Part shown: positions 6,291 through 61,120 of the stretch, piece by piece
Layout of the letters: each line of letters begins with the position of its first letter
Position numbering within the stretch: the first letter of the stretch is position 1
Assembly (NCBI GenBank): GCA_031292625.1
Contig: JARLGU010000012.1
Location: 62,001 to 126,000, forward strand
Source of the DNA: Capsulimonadaceae bacterium
Lineage (GTDB): Bacteria; Armatimonadota; Armatimonadia; Armatimonadales; Capsulimonadaceae
Reading direction: 5' to 3'
DNA length: 64,000 bases
Position numbers and translations under genes: made by a program
The notes under the pieces: generated by a model
Databases searched by the model: none
Told to the model about the DNA's origin: nothing
The model's input: the letters and a program-made list of their open reading frames with translations, nothing else

Positions 6291-6334
6291 CATACTAGTA
6301 TGAATATAATAGCATGGCAATGCGTGATTGTCAA
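6291..6334 (-). promoter_or_regulatory. Promoter and palindromic operator of the GntR-type gene
   Basis: On the minus strand TTGACA (6334-6329) is followed after 17 bases by TATTAT (6311-6306). A perfect 12-base palindrome, CATACTAGTATG, covers 6291-6302, where transcription should start. This is the geometry of a repressor site that blocks the promoter, and the adjacent GntR-type product is the obvious candidate binder. Confidence 0.65.
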
Positions 6335-6507
6335 GGCGATTTGGAATTGCGTTGCAGTTGTTCGCGGAGTGGCCTCTGCCCTACGAACCCGCTGGCGGCC
6401 ATTTGGCCGCGCAGCGCATTTACGTCACACGGGGAAGGTTCCGACGGGGGAGCGCTCCCGGCGGTCATCGAATACGCCGGGGCGCGGGTTCGCCAGGCGG
6501 CAGGCGG

Positions 6508-7962
6508 CTACCGCCCGACGCCATCGCCGATTGCGTGGGCGAGGGCGGCGCGGGATTGGTCCAGGGCGGAGCGGGCGTTCACGAGGTCCGTTTGCGCGGA
6601 AAGCAGCGCTGCCTGCGCATCGGTTACTTCAAGAAAGATCGCGATGCCTGCACGGAAGCGGCCGTCGGCCAATTGGACCGCGACCTGCGCGTTCGTGACG
6701 CCGTCTTGCGCGGTCGTGACGCGCTGATCCGCCAGGAGCGTGTTCAGGTAGGCCTGCGCGACATCGGATGCGATCGACTGCTGAACGGATGTCAGGTTCG
6801 CCTTCGCGGTCGCGAGATTTCCCTGCGCTTCCTTAATCCGGCCGCTAGTCAGCCCGGAGTCGAACGGATCGAATGAAAGAGAAACGCCTGCCGATACCGA
6901 GCCGGAATTGGGCGGAAAGACGGTGTCCTTTCCCGTATATCCGGCCGTGCCGACGACGACAGGGGCGTTGGCCGTTCGCGCGGCGCTCAGTGCATCCTCT
7001 GATGCGCGTTCGTTTGCCTCCGCGGCCAAAACGTCCGGGCGCGCGCGAAGTGCTGTGGCGATCAGGGAGTTGAGATCCGTTGCCGGGGGCGCGGGTTCAT
7101 CGCTGTCGGCGGGCTTGACCGGCGTTCGCGGGTCGAGGCCCATCGACACGGCGAGGGTGACCTGGGCGATTTGGGCCGTATTACGCGCGATATTCAGCTG
7201 CAACGCGGCGTTTGACACCGCCGTCTGAGCGGTTACGACGTCGCTCACCAGGCCGATTCCGGCAACTTGCCGGGCCCTAGCTTCTTCCAGATGCTGGTAC
7301 TGAGCGCGGTAGTTGTCCGCATTGACCGTGACCAGTCTGAGGTCTTGCGCCAGATTATAGAAATTCTGTTTGACAAGCAGCACCGTATCGGCCTGCGTTT
7401 TCGTTAACGTGTAAGCGCCAACAGCCTCGAGCGCCGACGCCTGTGATGCGAGGCGGGACCGGTGCCCGAAGTCGAACAAAAGCTGTTGCAAGGCGATCGC
7501 ATCCGTGCCTTCCGGTCCTACGGCATTTGCCGCGATGACCGAAGAAGACGCCCCTGCCTTTTCAACGATCTTTGACTCCGCGTATCCGCCTGTCACGGTG
7601 ACTCCTGGCAAAAGCTGCGAGCGCGCCTGCTTCGTCCGTCCCGCGGCCGCGGTCAACGCGCCTTGCGCGGACGCGATCGAGGGCTGATAATGCAGAGCGA
7701 TGTAGGCGGCTTGATCGGCCGTAATCGGAGTTGCCGGCACATCCGCCGGCGCGGCGGACGGCGGAGGCGGGATGGTAATCGCGGGGGGCAGCGGCGTGTC
7801 TCGCGTGTTAACCGGCAGCGGCGCGGGCGCTGGGACCGGCTGATCGGGGGTAGTCTGTGCCGTCGCCGCGGATGAAACGACGCAGAGCGATAAAAGCGCG
7901 GCGGATCCAAGGGCTACGGATGAAAGTCTTCGCGAATGCAGTTGGTGCTTGATTGTCATCAT
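6508..7962 (-). CDS. TolC-family outer membrane efflux protein
   Basis: A 484-residue exported protein with a signal peptide ending near residue 36 (SSAATAQ), a Pro-rich linker, and two homologous alpha-helical/barrel repeats typical of TolC/OprM channels. The second half repeats the RPDVLAAEANERASEDALSAA-type helix pattern (split here across residues near 310). It would form the outer-membrane exit duct for the RND pump encoded upstream. Two ATGs (7962, 7959) lie next to a GGAAAG sequence, so the start could be either. It is the last gene of the four-gene efflux operon, about ten bases after marR. Confidence 0.93.
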   Translation of the reverse strand: MMTIKHQLHSRRLSSVALGSAALLSLCVVSSAATAQTTPDQPVPAPAPLPVNTRDTPLPPAITIPPPPSAAPADVPATPITADQAAYIALHYQPSIASAQGALTAAAGRTKQARSQLLPGVTVTGGYAESKIVEKAGASSSVIAANAVGPEGTDAIALQQLLFDFGHRSRLASQASALEAVGAYTLTKTQADTVLLVKQNFYNLAQDLRLVTVNADNYRAQYQHLEEARARQVAGIGLVSDVVTAQTAVSNAALQLNIARNTAQIAQVTLAVSMGLDPRTPVKPADSDEPAPPATDLNSLIATALRARPDVLAAEANERASEDALSAARTANAPVVVGTAGYTGKDTVFPPNSGSVSAGVSLSFDPFDSGLTSGRIKEAQGNLATAKANLTSVQQSIASDVAQAYLNTLLADQRVTTAQDGVTNAQVAVQLADGRFRAGIAIFLEVTDAQAALLSAQTDLVNARSALDQSRAALAHAIGDGVGR

Positions 7963-7972
7963 TCTTTCCGGT

Positions 7973-8464
7973 TTACGGCTGTTTTTCTTCGGCTGGCGGC
8001 GTCTGACGTCCGGGGTTGTCCGGCGTCGGCTGTTCCGTCGCGGCGTTCAGCAAGGCATTGATTGCGTCCGCGATCTCAGTGCGGCGAGCGGAGGGCAGAG
8101 AGCTAAGAACCTGCGCGACTCTGGCGGTGCGCCGGTCTCGTCGCGCCGTCATGAGCGCCCGGCCGTGTTCGGTCAGCGACAGGTACCGCACGCGACGGTC
8201 CTGAAGGCCTGGGTCTCGCTGTACGAATCCGATTTTTTCCAGCCGGTCGGCGATCTGACACGCGGCGCTCGCCGTGACTCCGAGCTCCTCGGCGATCTCC
8301 GTGATCGGGCTCGCGCCCACCGAGAGCAGGTGCGAGCACAGCCTTGATTGAGCGACCGGCAGTTCTCCCGCCGGTTCGTTGATCGACAGCGTAAAAAGGC
8401 GCCGCATCATGCGCGGCAGTTTGCGTTCGATCTCCGCGGCTAAACTGTCTATGTCGTCTTGCAT
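7973..8464 (-). CDS. MarR-family regulator of the efflux operon
   Basis: A 163-residue MarR-type winged-helix protein with the recognition region ITEIAEELGVTASAACQIAD, followed by the DRR wing (LQDRRVRYLSLTEHG). The C-terminus is Pro/Gln/Glu-rich and unusually polar. It lies inside the pump operon between the RND gene and the TolC gene, so it probably represses its own operon and releases DNA when it binds a pump substrate. The likely site is the AT-rich palindrome at 13521-13543. Confidence 0.92.
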   Translation of the reverse strand: MQDDIDSLAAEIERKLPRMMRRLFTLSINEPAGELPVAQSRLCSHLLSVGASPITEIAEELGVTASAACQIADRLEKIGFVQRDPGLQDRRVRYLSLTEHGRALMTARRDRRTARVAQVLSSLPSARRTEIADAINALLNAATEQPTPDNPGRQTPPAEEKQP

Positions 8465-8519
8465 TTAAGGCCTTCCAATAACGCGCGGCTGCTCCGAGGC
8501 TCGTAAAACCGGACCATCG

Positions 8520-11500
8520 CTACTCGTCCCCGACTCCCGCCGGCGTCGGTTCGACAAGGGCTGGCTGGGCGAGATCGCCTTCATTCGTCGAGAACCTCCG
8601 ACCCAGGTCGTCGAAGAGCGTGTAGACGGTCGGTACGACAAACAAGGTCAGCAGCGTTGACGTCAGTAATCCGCCGATTACCGCGGTCGCCATCGGGGCG
8701 TTGGTTTCCGAACCTTTACCGATCGCCATTGCGATGGGCATCATGCCAAGCACCGTCGCGCTCGTGGTCATCAGAATCGGTCTGAGCCGGGTCGGCGCGG
8801 CTTCCATGACCGCGGCGTTGCGCTCCATGCCGCGACCTCTTAGCGTGTTTGTGTAGTCAACGAGCAAGATGCCGTTCTTGACGACAATGCCGACGAGCAT
8901 GAGAATGCCGATCAGCGCGGTCAATCCGAAGGAGCGCCCGCAGAGAAACAGGCCAAGCAACACGCCGACGATTGACACCGGCACGGAGCAGAGAATGGTC
9001 AGCGGGTGCGTAAACGACTCAAACTGAGCTGCGAGAAGCATGTAGATCAACGCGATCGCGAGGAAGATTGACGCGCCCATGCTGCCGAACTGGTCGTCTC
9101 GCTGCTTCTGATTGAGCCCCCAATCCCAATAGTACCCTTGCGGCAGATCCATCCCGTTGAGGGCCTTGGCCACATCCTTCTGGATTTCGCCTTCCGAGCG
9201 GCCCTGGGGCTGGCCGCTAACCGCGATGTATCGCTGGCGATCCAGGCGCGTGATGTCGCTGGGGCCGACGCCGATTGACGGCGTGGCGACCTGTTGGAGC
9301 ATCACGGTGCTTGTCGTGCCGGCGGGCGCAAGCGAGGGCGTGATCGGGACGGAGGCTAGCTGACTTTCGGTAAGGCGTCTGTCCAGCGGATACTGAACCT
9401 GGATTGGGTACTGAAAGCCGTTCTCCTGATAGTAGCTGGAGACGTAGCCGTTTGTCGCCGTATTGAGCGTATTAGCGACATCGGAGAACGTTACGCCCAT
9501 TTGTACGGCCTTCTCGCGGTCGACGTGCCACTGGACCTCCGGCGCGGCCTCTTGCCAGTTCGTGTCGGCGTCCACGAAACCCGGAATGCCCTTCGTTCGT
9601 TCAAGCACCTGGGCGCCGAGCTTTGAAAGCGTGTCCAGATTCGATCCGAAGATATCAACTTCTACGGCCGTGTTGCCGCCAGTTAGAATTCTCGTGACGA
9701 CATCCGTCGAAACAACCTGAATTCGTGCGCCTGGGATGCCGCGTAGTTGCTTTCTTAGGTCGGCCATGACCTTGAGCGTGCTATCCGGTCTGCGATCCTT
9801 TAGCTTGATGACGATCGCGCCCTGGTTGCCGTAGAGCGTAGTCGACGTTCCTCGCAGGCCGAGCTGAGAGCCAATGGCGGTAAAGGCCGTCTTGACGTTC
9901 TTATTGGCAAGTACGACTTGCTCGATGTGAAGCATCACGGAACGGGTTTGACCAAGCGCGGTCCCCGGCGGCAGCTTGAGGTTGATTTGGAAGTCGCCGC
10001 TGTCCGTCGCGGGCATCAGTTCGACGCCGATCTGTGGAGCGAGCAGAAGGCTGAGCGCCGTGATCCCGGCCGCGAACGAGACGACGGTCAGACGATGCTT
10101 GAGCGCCCAGCGCAACCCGTGCCGGTAGCTTTCATCCAGGGCGTCGAACCACTGTCCAAATTTCCGGAACACGCGGTATCCAAACATGTTCGGGTTCTCG
10201 TGCGTATCCTCCGGCTTGATGAAGCGCGATGCGATCATCGGAACGACCGTGGTTGCGTCGAGCCAGGACATCGCGATCGAGAAGATGACCACGAGTGCGA
10301 ACTGCGTGAACATCTCGCCTGCCTGTCCCTTGATAAGCAGGAGGGGGAGAAACACGACCATGACCGTCAGGGTTGACGCCAAGACCGCCTGCATCATTTC
10401 CGCGCCGCCCGAGACCGCGGCCTCAGGCGCGCGCACCTTGCCCTTGCCGCGTTCCATGTGCCGGTAGATGTTCTCGAGCACCACGACGGCATCGTCGGCG
10501 ATCAGGCCGGTCGCAAGCGCCAGGCCGCCCAGGGACATCGTGTTCAGGGTGAACCCGCAGAGGTAGATCACCGCAAATGTCGATGTGATGGAAATCGGAA
10601 TGGACAGCGCAACGACGACCGTGCTGCGATAGTTGCGGAGGAAGAACAAAAGGACCACGACCGCCAGACACCCGCCGAAGATTGCGTTGCTCTGAAGATC
10701 TTTGATCGAGTCGTCGATAAACTCAGCCTGATCGTACGCAACTTCGAAATGGAGATAGGGATACCGCTTGGTTATTTGCGCGATCTTTGTTGCAACCGCC
10801 TCTGCCGTTGAAACGGTATTGACGCCGCTCTGTTTGCTGATGATTATGCCGACGGCAGGCGCTCCGTTCATCCGCGTCCAAACGCGCGTGTCGGTATGCG
10901 AATCCTCGATTGCCGCCACATCGCCAACCGAGATCAACCGGCCGTTAACCGACTTTAGCGGGACGCGCGCGATTTGCTGAGGGTTGATGAACCAGCCGAG
11001 GCTTCGGATCGTTAATTCTGTTTTGCTTTTAAGCGCGATGCCGGCGGGAACATTCTGGTTTTCCTGGGCGATCCGCGCGACGAGGTTGTCGAGCGAGAGG
11101 CCATAGGCGCGCAGACGGTCGGGATCCGCGTTTACCAGAATCGCTCGCTGCAAACCACCGGTCGAGACCGCCGATGCGACTCCATCCGCCGATTCGATGA
11201 TCGGCGTAATCTCGTTGTCGAGCAGCGTACGCAGCTTCACGGGATCGGAGATGCCGGTAACGCCGTATTGGAGGATCGGCAGCTGCGAAGGATCGTATTT
11301 GAATACGATTGGTTCCTGTAGCGTAGGATCCGTCGGGAATTTCTGCCGGGCGCGTTCGACCAGCTGAAGGACATCCACGGCGCCCTGGCCGATATCGGTT
11401 CCCCACTGGAACTGGACGCGTACGGTGGACGTCCCTTCGACCGTGTCCGACGTCACCGTGTACATGTTCGGAACCGCCGAAACAGCCTCCTCGATCGGAC

Positions 11501-13706: not shown

Positions 13707-14170
13707 CCTCGGCATGCCCATGAATTACGCAGCCGCTAAGAAATAGAACCCCGCGAGTGCCGTGTGCCGAACACGTTTTTGAACCCGCATAGCACGGGCG
13801 GGTTGCCGCCGGATGGCATTGCGATTCCCCCGTAAGGGCTGCCACGTTGCTATCCTGTCACGACCCCCATTAACATGTCATCGTTGGCTCAAAACGACTG
13901 TTGACATCACGCAAACACCGCAGGGACGGATAATGTTAGCACAGCATATCGGCCCTGTCAAGCCGAAATACTCCGAATGAGCGACCCAGTCTGCAGGGTT
14001 ATTTGCCACGATTGCTGCTTACGGCAAGGCGGATTGCAACTCCCTCGTTTTTAGGCTCACTCATCCCGTCCGCTTTCCTTCGCACAATCAGACGATCAAT
14101 CGGTTGAATGCGCGACCTGCCGCGAATTTGGCGGCTTATGAACCGATTCTTCGGTCCTTAACGCCAGGGT

Positions 14171-56967: not shown

Positions 56968-57064
56968 ACCGATTCGTCAGATGATGCGAATGATTTGAAA
57001 ATTCATCAGATGTTTATTATGGGGAACATTGCTCGAACCGCTTCTAGCAATTCTAGAATAACTC

Positions 57065-57140
57065 TTGACACATGAAGGATTCGGTGATACCATATGGTGG
57101 TTGGTATGAGGCATGTACCATATGGTCTGCGGCCATATGC
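57065..57140 (+). promoter_or_regulatory. Promoter with tandem CCATATGG palindromes
   Basis: TTGACA (57065-57070), a 17-base spacer and TACCAT (57088-57093). The palindrome ACCATATGGT covers the -10 box (57089-57098) and recurs exactly at 57117-57126, 28 bases on. A related half, GGCCATATGC, lies at 57131-57140. The GntR-type regulator at the end of the operon (59939-61120) is the likely binder. Confidence 0.7.
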
Positions 57141-57211
57141 AAGCATCCCTGTCGCCTATTTAGATGGACGGCATTTTGATCAGGCGACTCGACAATTGGA
57201 GACCATCGTAC

Positions 57212-58120
57212 ATGAAACGGAATAATGCCTTTACATTGATAGAACTGCTAGTTGTTATAGCGATAATTGCGATATTAGCTGCGGTGTTGTTTCCCGTGTT
57301 CGCTACGGCTCGAGAGAAAGCCAGGCAATCGAGTTGCACGAGCAACATGAAGCAGCTTGGATTAGCGCTCCTGCAGTATGTACAGGACAGTGACGAGCAT
57401 TATCCATGTGTTGGCCAGAGCACGACGCCGGGCGCAGGCTGGGCAAGCCTCGTGTATAGTTATGTCAGGTCGACTAACGTGTATTTGTGTCCCGACGATA
57501 TGACCCAGACCAACACGGTTAGCGTCTCGTCGCCGTACGTGATCTCTTACGGCATCAACGAAAATCTCACGGCTGCGCTCAACAATCCGATTGTAACCCC
57601 GGCGGCCGGAGTAGGCGCGACGGGGGCGAGCGACCTGCTAATGCCTGCCGCTACAATTTTGCTCTTTGAGTGCCAAGGCGAGGAAGGGGCTTTGCTAACT
57701 CTTAGCGATACCAACTCGCCGTCAGGCAATGGCGCGGATTCGCTCTCTGTCGGTAAGTTCAAGCCGCTTGGCGGAAAAGCGGGCGCTAATCCAAATAGCT
57801 ATGATTATCGCAAGTATACCGACATTATCGGTGGCCGAAAGGCTGCGTTTACGACCGTAAACGGTGCGAACATGACCGTGAACGACTTTCCGCTCCAACC
57901 TGCGGTCCATAGCGGCGGATCCAATTGGCTCCTTGCTGACGGACACATCAAGTGGCTGCACGGACAGAATATTTCTGGCGGCCCCACGCCGTCCAAGCAG
58001 ACCGGCTGCGCCCAGGACGCGTGCGTGCAAACCGCCGCAACGGGGGCACTCTACGAAAGCGCCGCGACTACGGACCAAATGACGGGCGCCCCATTTTTGG
58101 CGACGTTCAGCCCTTTCTAG
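57212..58120 (+). CDS. Prepilin-like H-X9-DG protein
   Basis: A 302-residue pseudopilin with [17 protein letters not shown] and the shared [16 protein letters not shown] block. The H-X9-DG pattern is His233 with Asp243-Gly244, followed by HIKWLHG. The C-terminus ends TFSPF, close to the TFSPI of the protein at 4010. It lies under the tandem-palindrome promoter and is followed at once by the beta-helix protein gene. The ATG at 57212 gives the normal short leader, with GGAG about ten bases upstream. Confidence 0.93.
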
Positions 58121-58124
58121 TCGT

Positions 58125-59894
58125 GTGATTGACAAGAGGATATCCTTGAGACGAATTGAAACGATCTGCATCTTGGCTGCATGGGCTATAGCGTTATTCG
58201 GTCAGCCCGCCGCCGCGGTCACGCTCGCTGGCGATGGCGTCACCGACGATACAGCGGCATTACAAGCAGCGCTGGACCATGCTGGGCAGACGGCATCTCA
58301 GGTCGACCTGCCGCCCGGTCAGTATTTGATCAAGGGCAGCCTCGACGTTCCGCCGGGAGTCGCCTTACGCGGAAGCTGGATTGCCGCGCATGACGCGAAG
58401 TTATGGACCAAGGGGACGACGCTCCTGCTCACCGGAGGCAAGGGAAACGAGAGTGGAACTCCCGCGATTACCCTCAACCAGAGCAGTGCGCTTTGCGGCG
58501 TGACGCTCGCTTGGCCCGAGCAGCAATGGGACGCCATCGTTGCTTATCCGTGGGCCATCAAGAGCCAGGGAAACGATGTAACGGTTGAAAACGTCTCGCT
58601 TGTCAACGCTTATCAGGGTATCGACGAGGCACTCAGCCCTTGTCACCTCGTTCGCAATGTCTACGGGACCGTTTTGCGCCGCGGTATCTGCATCGATCAG
58701 TGCTACGATGTTGGGCGCCTCGAAAATATCCACTTCAATACATCCTATTGGATCAACAGCGGGCTCGGCACGATGCCTGAGCATATTGGAGGCGCGCGGA
58801 AGGACGTTCCTAGGTATACGATGCAGAACCTGGAGGCTTTTACTTTCGGACGAACCGATTGCGAGTATGTGTTCAACACATTCGTCTGGGGCGCGAAGTA
58901 TGCCTACCATTTTATAAAAACAGAGGCGGGAGATGCCTACGGCCAGTTCGCCGGGATTGGCGCTGACTGTTGCAACGTAGACATCCTTGTCGACGCCCTG
59001 CAGAGGCCGGGTTTGCAGATTACAAACGGAAATTTCACGGCGTTTGCGAAACCGATCAGCGTCGGTCTCATGGTCAGTTCCGGCGTGAGCGCACCAGTCG
59101 AGTTGGTCAACTGCACTTTTTTCGGTACACCGAATGGCGCTGCCGTATTGAGCGGCGACAACCAGGTAACGCTTAGCGGGTGCCATTTTGTCCACCGTGG
59201 CAAGCCGGCCGTGATTGTAGCGAACAGCGGGAGCGTTAGCATTGGGAATTGCAGCTTCGGCGAAAAAGGAATCGCGGCGCTCCTTGGCTCCAGAGTCCGC
59301 GGCGCGGCCGTGACGGGAAACTTGCAACCGGGCGGGCTTCTCGTGGAGAACCAGGCTGGCGATAGAGCGCAAATCGTTGGGAATGAAGCACCGGTTGTTT
59401 ACTCGGATGCGGTCCTCCAGCACTACGTCGTGAACATCGGTGATCTGGGAGACGACGAATTCATTGGCGACGGTTGGTATGGCCGAGAAGGCGCCGCAAG
59501 CTCGTCAGATAAAGGCAAACCTGCTTATAATCGATCGCGCTGGACTGAAGGCGAAGCCACGGTGACCTTGCCGGTAAAGTCTGGCGCTGCCTACACGGCA
59601 AGGATCAGGCTCGCGGTGATATCCAATAAACCGCCCGCCACGGTGTCGATCGAAAACGGCTCAGCCGTAATCGTGCAAGGCGGGCCTCCTACGGCCGTGA
59701 CCCTGGAGATCCCAGCGCAGCTCACTACGGGACATCGCTCGTTGCTACTCAAGATCGCAAGCAAGGGGTGGGTGCCCGCGCATGATGAACCGGGTAACGG
59801 AGACAAGCGCTTGTTGGGCGCTCGAGTGTTTGCCGTCGAAATGACGGCAGCGGGTTCGCCGGGCGACGCGATGGAGCTGACCGCTTCTCCTTGA
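58125..59894 (+). CDS. Exported pectate-lyase-like beta-helix protein
   Basis: A 589-residue exported protein with a signal peptide ending near QPAAA. The mature start DGVTDDTAALQAALDHA, followed by VDLPPGQYLIKG, is the signature of pectate_lyase_3/GH28-related right-handed beta-helices. About ten helix turns follow (VENVSLVNAYQG, CHLVRNVYGT, LSGCHFVH). The last 130 residues form a separate beta-sandwich, perhaps a carbohydrate-binding module. It could be a lyase or hydrolase on pectin-like polymers; no catalytic residues can be assigned by eye. It starts five bases after the prepilin stop, so one operon. Confidence 0.87.
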   Translation: MIDKRISLRRIETICILAAWAIALFGQPAAAVTLAGDGVTDDTAALQAALDHAGQTASQVDLPPGQYLIKGSLDVPPGVALRGSWIAAHDAKLWTKGTTLLLTGGKGNESGTPAITLNQSSALCGVTLAWPEQQWDAIVAYPWAIKSQGNDVTVENVSLVNAYQGIDEALSPCHLVRNVYGTVLRRGICIDQCYDVGRLENIHFNTSYWINSGLGTMPEHIGGARKDVPRYTMQNLEAFTFGRTDCEYVFNTFVWGAKYAYHFIKTEAGDAYGQFAGIGADCCNVDILVDALQRPGLQITNGNFTAFAKPISVGLMVSSGVSAPVELVNCTFFGTPNGAAVLSGDNQVTLSGCHFVHRGKPAVIVANSGSVSIGNCSFGEKGIAALLGSRVRGAAVTGNLQPGGLLVENQAGDRAQIVGNEAPVVYSDAVLQHYVVNIGDLGDDEFIGDGWYGREGAASSSDKGKPAYNRSRWTEGEATVTLPVKSGAAYTARIRLAVISNKPPATVSIENGSAVIVQGGPPTAVTLEIPAQLTTGHRSLLLKIASKGWVPAHDEPGNGDKRLLGARVFAVEMTAAGSPGDAMELTASP

Positions 59895-59912
59895 AGCCTG
59901 CCTACCAAGGGT

Positions 59913-59919
59913 GTACAAT
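59913..59919 (+). promoter_or_regulatory. Possible internal promoter of the GntR-type gene
   Basis: GTACAAT with a nearby AAGGAG (59924-59929) before the GTG at 59939. The regulator may thus be expressed both from the operon promoter and on its own. Confidence 0.4.
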
Positions 59920-59938: not shown

Positions 59939-61120
59939 GTGGGCGAACTGAACAGCCAACCGGCCGCGACCACAATTTACAGGCGTATCGAGCAGGACCT
60001 TCGGGCGAAGGTTCGCGGCGGAAAGTGGCGGCCCGGAACCTTAATTCCGAGCCGTAAGGCCTTGTCGCGGGAATACGGCGTCGACCTGAGCACGGTGCAG
60101 CGTGCGATCGGAATTCTACTCGCGGACGGAACGCTATCCGCGGAAAACGGCCGGGGGACGTTTGTCGCGGACAACTCCTCTGGCAATTCGCGCCTGTCCG
60201 GGTGGCTAGAAGTACAGACGATCGGGCTGATTGTCGATCATATCGGCACGACCGCCGAGGCGGGCCCTCGGGCGATTACTCAGGCAATCCACGCGGCCGT
60301 TCGCGCGGCATCAGCGGACTGCCGGATCGTCATCTTTGACACTTACGATGCCACTGTGGAGGCGGCCGCCAAGCATGAAGCCGACGCACTCGCGCTTCTC
60401 GAACACCAAGGCGTGGCGGGGGCCATTGTCTGGCACTGCGGCAGCAGCCAAACCATCCCGATTATGCGCCGGATTATGCAGCGTCGAATCCCCATGGTGC
60501 TCATCGACCGGTTGCCCACGGGTCTCAATTGCGATTTCGTCGGTATCGACAATGTCTACAGTGCTCGGGAAGCGACCGAGTACCTGCTTTCGCTTGGGCA
60601 CCGGCAAATCGCCTTCCTGGCCCCGCAGGAAGAAATTTCGACGCTCGAGGGTCGATTAAAGGGGTATCGCCAGGCGCTTGAAAAGGCGGACATCCCCGTG
60701 CGGCAGGAACTGGAATTCCGGCCCCCGCTAGCGGAAAGCCTCGTCGTGGAAAAGCTCAAGGCGCAACTTGTGCAACTTGTTGAGCGGATCAAATCCATGG
60801 CGAATCCGCCGACGGCGATTTTCGCGGCGAACGATGTATTGGCCCAACATCTTATCGTGGCGCTTGCGGAGAACGGACTGGGAGTTCCGGATGACATGAG
60901 TGTCATCGGCCTGGATGATCTGGAGCGCTATTCGAGCAGCGCTCCGTTTTTGACGAGCATGCGGCAGCCGTTTGACTTGATTGGCGAACGCGCGGCGCAG
61001 ACTCTGCTCGAACGTATTAACGCCGTCCCTTCCGCAGACGATGCTTACGCGGCGTATACGCAAATTCTTCTTCCTACGAAGCTCATCGAGCGCAAATCGT
61101 GCCGCTCGGTTGCATCTTAA
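59939..61120 (+). CDS. GntR-headed transcription regulator with LacI-type sensor
   Basis: A 393-residue AraR-like protein. The winged helix is TTIYRRIEQDLRAKVRGGKW onward with LSREYGVDLSTVQRAIGILL, and the sugar sensor starts near residue 93 (QTIGLIVDHIG) with IFAANDVLAQ and VIGLDDLERY. It is close in plan to the regulator at 4897-6246 and also sits with an H-X9-DG prepilin and a glycan enzyme. GTG start with AAGGAG nine bases upstream. Expected to bind the CCATATGG palindromes ahead of the prepilin gene. Confidence 0.92.
   Translation: MGELNSQPAATTIYRRIEQDLRAKVRGGKWRPGTLIPSRKALSREYGVDLSTVQRAIGILLADGTLSAENGRGTFVADNSSGNSRLSGWLEVQTIGLIVDHIGTTAEAGPRAITQAIHAAVRAASADCRIVIFDTYDATVEAAAKHEADALALLEHQGVAGAIVWHCGSSQTIPIMRRIMQRRIPMVLIDRLPTGLNCDFVGIDNVYSAREATEYLLSLGHRQIAFLAPQEEISTLEGRLKGYRQALEKADIPVRQELEFRPPLAESLVVEKLKAQLVQLVERIKSMANPPTAIFAANDVLAQHLIVALAENGLGVPDDMSVIGLDDLERYSSSAPFLTSMRQPFDLIGERAAQTLLERINAVPSADDAYAAYTQILLPTKLIERKSCRSVAS

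Follow-up and report, generated by a model that had tools for sequence, protein, structure and literature searches.

Tandem palindromes on a DUF1559 prepilin promoter as probable operators of the operon's own GntR/LacI-type regulator

Two exact copies of the palindrome ACCATATGGT lie on and just behind the promoter of a prepilin operon, and we consider it likely that they, perhaps with a third site, are private operators of the regulator encoded by the operon's own last gene (59939-61120), which would act as a ligand-released repressor. The window analyzed here is the whole stretch of 64,000 nucleotides, and positions refer to it unless a contig or locus is named. The preliminary description had ACCATATGGT occurring twice, 28 bases apart, with the first copy on the -10 box of a TTGACA/17/TACCAT promoter, and the sequence agrees exactly, with the copies at 57089-57098 and 57117-57126. 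Promoter and operon contain the following features.

57065..57070, plus strand: -35 box TTGACA with a C before it (sequence reading, promoter scan and pattern count)
57088..57093, plus strand: -10 box TACCAT after a 17-bp spacer, with an extended TG (promoter scan)
57089..57098, no strand: site 1, ACCATATGGT, on the -10 box; equivalent position occupied in the promoter of a paralogous operon on contig C48
57117..57126, no strand: site 2, ACCATATGGT, 28 bp downstream of site 1
57133..57139, no strand: site 3, CCATATG, weaker (sequence and repeat search); a leader-RNA hairpin with site 2 is possible
57087..57107, no strand: alternative half-site reading made by eye, a putative inverted repeat ATACCA-N9-TGGTAT through site 1
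57212..58120, plus strand: DUF1559 prepilin (PF07596) with an N-methylation motif and an H-X9-DG C-terminal motif (Pfam profile and motif search)
58125..59894, plus strand: beta-helix/pectate-lyase-like protein (Pect-lyase_RHGA_epim, from Pfam), with a counterpart at 49% identity in another genome of the family
59891..59919, plus strand: possible internal promoter for the regulator, TTGAAG-17-TACAAT, 9/12 (from a promoter scan near background)
59939..61120, plus strand: regulator with a GntR winged HTH and a LacI-type Peripla_BP_3 sensor (Pfam, structure match and alignments)

The promoter scores 10 of 12 in the promoter scan and also has the extended -10 TG. Its CTTGACA-N17-TACCAT begins at 57064, and the more general pattern CTTGACA-N17-TANNNT was found at 3 places in the 64-kb window against 0.07 expected. 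Another is a regulator promoter on the minus strand (CTTGACA-17-TATTAT, 6291-6335) with a perfect CATACTAGTATG palindrome directly after its -10 box, and the third is CTTGACA-17-TAACAT, also on the minus strand, at 13933-13962. Site 2 would fall at about +17 to +26, counted from a predicted and unmapped transcription start. Tandem palindromes on a promoter are operator-like, as had been proposed, and the third related site mentioned at that time is real but weaker, its CATATG starting 15 bp after that of site 2. We also considered a second copy of the promoter at site 2 and rejected it, as no -35-like sequence was seen by eye at the proper distance and the promoter scan returned none.

The first gene of the operon encodes a protein with all the marks of a DUF1559 prepilin (N-terminal methylation motif, PF07596 and H-X9-DG motif), and a start at ATG 57212, after GGAG at 57198-57201, is favored over ATG 57164. 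Gene order and the domains PF00392 (residues 14-76) and PF13377 (214-388) bear out the earlier statement that the last gene is a GntR-headed regulator. This order is unusual: among the 150 DUF1559 and 150 regulator matches listed, the nearest same-strand regulator within 1.5 kb preceded the DUF1559 gene in 68 cases and followed it in 2. The possible weak promoter at 59891-59919, which comes from a scan that found 5 candidates against 2.3 in shuffles, could uncouple the regulator from the operators and counts against our reading of the sites. A plasmid search with the regulator returned only matches below 60% identity.

We propose that without ligand, a sugar-type small molecule, a regulator dimer would occupy both site 1, on the -10 box, and site 2, at the transcript start, that the dimers would probably assist each other, and that their occupancy would close the near-consensus promoter. 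Ligand bound to the LacI-type domain would free the regulator from DNA, and prepilin, lyase-like secreted protein and regulator would then be produced together, with negative feedback.

The word ACCATATGGT alone does not stand out from chance. With at most one mismatch it occurs twice in the window against 0.71 expected, a count that 18 of 100 shuffles reach and that is not significant, and in the 5.77-Mb genome it is not enriched, with 5 exact occurrences against 4 for a reversed control and 98 against 83 when one mismatch is allowed. On the exact counts we rejected a genome-wide regulon of the 10-mer; the other three exact sites lie inside ORFs (two) and in a gap between ORFs (one). The spaced pair of ACCATATGGT, with up to three mismatches in total, has its sole genome occurrence at this promoter. 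Its core, CATATG-N22-CATATG, is exact at 2 places in the genome against 0.12 expected (from the word frequency in 932,028 fetched bases) and 0 for the control, and 6 more places match with one mismatch. Both exact core pairs sit on the -10 box of prepilin operons, each with one of the two paralogous regulators. The genome search for site pairs suggested in the preliminary description therefore led to this promoter and the operon of the paralogous regulator, rather than to unrelated housekeeping genes only, an outcome in favor of that description.

These counts also bear on whether the sites serve a different or global regulator, such as one of many carbohydrate operons, while the operon's own regulator acts elsewhere. 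CATATG is present at the -10 of 4 of 147 promoters, two of them before other regulators (L191 and L136), as might be expected of such a protein; however, the lack of genome-wide enrichment of the word, and an exact spaced pair that follows this regulator group only, make this unlikely.

Contig C48 carries the second exact core pair, which sits on the -10 box of the promoter for an operon of two DUF1559 prepilins, a secreted protein with a GYQGW motif and a regulator that is 73% identical to the window regulator (next-best genome match, 38%). That the exact pair tracks the prepilin operons of two regulators this similar counts in favor of private operators. In a comparison of these promoters, 17 of 22 site positions are identical, whereas the 22-bp spacer agrees at 7 of 22, which is chance level, suggesting selection on the sites rather than mere recent copying; conserved sites around a decayed spacer are, as judged from sequence, a footprint. 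Shared ancestry without function, with the promoters as recent duplicates or the palindrome as chance, could draw on the likeness of the two promoters between -35 and -10 (10/17 identical), but is very unlikely given that both sites persist around this spacer and that so few exact pairs are expected in the genome. A second prepilin promoter of the C48 operon has the same -35 and degenerate sites, and this, like the presence of the full pair at one other promoter only, counts against private operators.

No third site was found at the matching place in the C48 promoter, which speaks against a role of sites 2 and 3 in the leader RNA, where their hairpin (CAUAUGGUC-UGC-GGCCAUAUG) would tune translation or stability. 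This 9-bp stem is present in the fold of 57100-57214, as this explanation would have it. Copies of a palindrome nevertheless pair automatically with each other, the fold is modestly better than shuffles (z -1.73, 13/200 as good), and site 1 precedes the expected transcription start, so that we hold control by leader RNA to be the least probable of the explanations considered.

Private operators are also favored by part of the evidence from two genomes of the same family, G002 and G006 (one of which is Capsulimonas sp. RYN_270), with regulators 48 and 45% identical to that of the window. These regulators adjoin a divergent gene for a GYQGW-motif protein (the C48 and G002 versions being 28% identical), and in G002 the cluster continues with genes for three DUF1559 prepilins and for a lyase-like protein that shares 49% identity with the one in the window. 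In both genomes the divergent GYQGW promoter reads TTGACA-N17-TAAGATATGGTCGTACTC and has AAGATATGGT, a two-mismatch form of ACCATATGGT, exactly at the place that corresponds to site 1; its presence near regulators of 45-48% identity supports private operators. The G006 regulator promoter carries ACCGTATGGG, one base off the expected position of site 2. The full site pair was not found in G002 or G006, where ACCATATGGT-like sites with at most two mismatches occur at no more than one place per promoter, and this counts against. When the divergent promoters of G002 and G006 are compared position by position without gaps, the match is lost behind an indel (24/46), and the figure was not used. Parts of the layout, on the sequences compared, extend beyond the genus and the full pair does not.

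Regulators and prepilins of this kind are numerous in the genome, which holds at least 150 matches to DUF1559 (151 with 150 of 410 first-look candidates scored) and at least 175 to the window regulator. Among genes with a free upstream region, a near-consensus promoter (TTGAC-16/18-TATAAT-like, within 200 bp upstream or inside the frame's initial 60 bp) was found for 92 of 105 regulator, 23 of 48 prepilin and 23 of 180 other genes; without the free-upstream filter the counts were 111 of 140, 33 of 143 and 29 of 378. The sample was 80 tiles (244 of 300 listed hits) plus L077, L081-L083, L086 and the window, with a few genes counted twice. An inverted repeat (shuffle p ≤ 0.05) follows the -10 box directly in 21 of 106 regulator promoters compared with 4 of 147 random segments, exact 7-bp direct repeats follow it in 21 of 147 promoters against 5.75 expected, and words of at least 9 bp are common to 12 of 116 pairs of promoters from the same locus compared with 1.2% of the 10,615 pairs whose members come from separate loci. 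Together these counts suggest that each cassette has its own private set of operators, in many cases tandem, and the promoter, inverted-repeat and direct-repeat counts favor private operators in the window as well. At prepilin promoters inverted repeats are at background level (2/41), which counts against, and we rejected them as a general feature of such promoters. Fixed 28-bp spacing was likewise rejected as a rule for all promoters, as lags vary from 8 to 33.

L126 and L141 (contigs C43 and C31) have ATATTAAGACTA common to three prepilin promoters and GTCATATTAAGACTA to two of them; one L126 regulator promoter carries TATTAAGAC, and with these prepilin promoters it could form a small regulon over two contigs. 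L123 (contig C44) has two adjoining regulator genes with the identical 15-bp word CAAGTAGACAATAGT after the -10 box, perhaps from a recent duplication. At L131 the gene after a regulator-prepilin pair (6914-9637) encodes a protein with the domains ART-PolyVal and PBECR1, whose names derive from phage polyvalent proteins, and may represent a mobile element at the cassette end.

Genes directly after a regulator-prepilin pair (n = 31) matched glycan-related, beta-helix, BNR or lectin-like Pfam families in 16 cases, others in 3 and none in 12, so the link to polysaccharides is partial. Over 61 genomes, the numbers of prepilins and regulators had a rank correlation of 0.65, or 0.46 given genome size, based on unconfirmed first-look candidates and with kinship ignored. 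DUF1559 was present in 61 of 61 Armatimonadota genomes searched (first-look counts 9 to 409), and a published statement that confines it to the PVC superphylum is at odds with this. We found no description of regulator-prepilin cassettes in open-access literature in searches that combined DUF1559 with GntR, Armatimonad, or pilin and polysaccharide, or Armatimonadetes with LacI and pilin.

The preliminary description had called the regulator AraR-like. This stands for the order of domains, a GntR winged HTH and a LacI-type sensor as in AraR of Bacillus subtilis (AraR subfamily of the GntR family), and the HTH matches AraR structure 4egy with an E of 7e-8; it does not stand for the recognition arginines or the operator type. 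AraR is described (PMC4218819) as having several target promoters with two palindromic operators, polysaccharide-linked targets and autoregulation, and its residues E30, R41 and R45 are tied there to DNA reading. In the alignment to 4egy these correspond to R39, L50 and Q54 of the window regulator, which thus has neither recognition arginine. The AraR consensus, At(T/A)tGTaCGTAcaa(A/T)T, is a GT..AC palindrome, whereas ACCATATGGT is of the AC..GT type. The usual GntR operator is given as NyGTNxACNy in a paper that lists several exceptions and considers the recognition Arg-G contact as possibly conserved across the family (PMC4494728). The AC-N6-GT site of the window does not match this consensus, and the missing arginine and the site type are departures that would fit each other.

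Spacing also sets the window apart from AraR, as AraR promoters with two operators require these to be in phase (PMC4218819). Sites 1 and 2, at 28 bp, are about 2.7 turns apart, so an AraR-style in-phase loop between them is not expected, and the earlier comparison fails in this respect; sites 1 and 3, at 43 bp or about 4.1 turns, are close to in phase and could fit. NanR of E. coli has a GntR-type HTH with a FadR-type sensor, where the window regulator has a LacI-type one. Several NanR dimers are reported to pack onto neighboring repeats in a cooperative manner, downstream of where the polymerase sits (PMC8012715). The window sites, too, allow a reading as TGGTAT-like half-sites, although NanR uses direct GGTATA repeats less than half a turn apart and the window has palindromes 28 bp apart; for sites 1 and 2, NanR-like close packing would be a better model than an AraR-type loop. 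Local LacI-family regulators of sugar-use operons are described as mostly autoregulated, with about 20% of the operons under their control having two or more sites (PMC4052901); they resemble the window regulator in local control but carry a LacI HTH rather than a GntR HTH, and the first target in the window is a prepilin. This kind of operator pair is thus already known, and the variant details are the site type, the missing arginines, the spacing, the prepilin target and the scale of repetition.

Most likely, the palindrome pair is a private switch that puts a pilus-like surface protein and a secreted polysaccharide-lyase-like protein under the operon's own sugar-type repressor, and switches of this kind recur dozens of times in the genome. 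As a wider reading, which we regard as possible but doubtful, the lineage might own a 'pilin wardrobe' of about a hundred independent switches, each with a near-consensus promoter, private operators and its own ligand-sensing GntR/LacI repressor, that would re-tailor the pilus-like surface to the polysaccharide present. Each switch would release one or a few DUF1559 prepilins and a matching polysaccharide-active secreted protein, and the GntR-headed branch would have lost the usual recognition arginines and would read AC..GT palindromes. Taken alone, the promoter would be a common case of local repression with a neat pair of operators. Its genome, with numerous paralogous repressors of which many are encoded beside their own presumed operator on a common promoter skeleton, amounts to a natural library, which would permit changes in HTH residues to be read against changes in operators and would connect particular polysaccharides with the hitherto unexplained DUF1559 prepilins.
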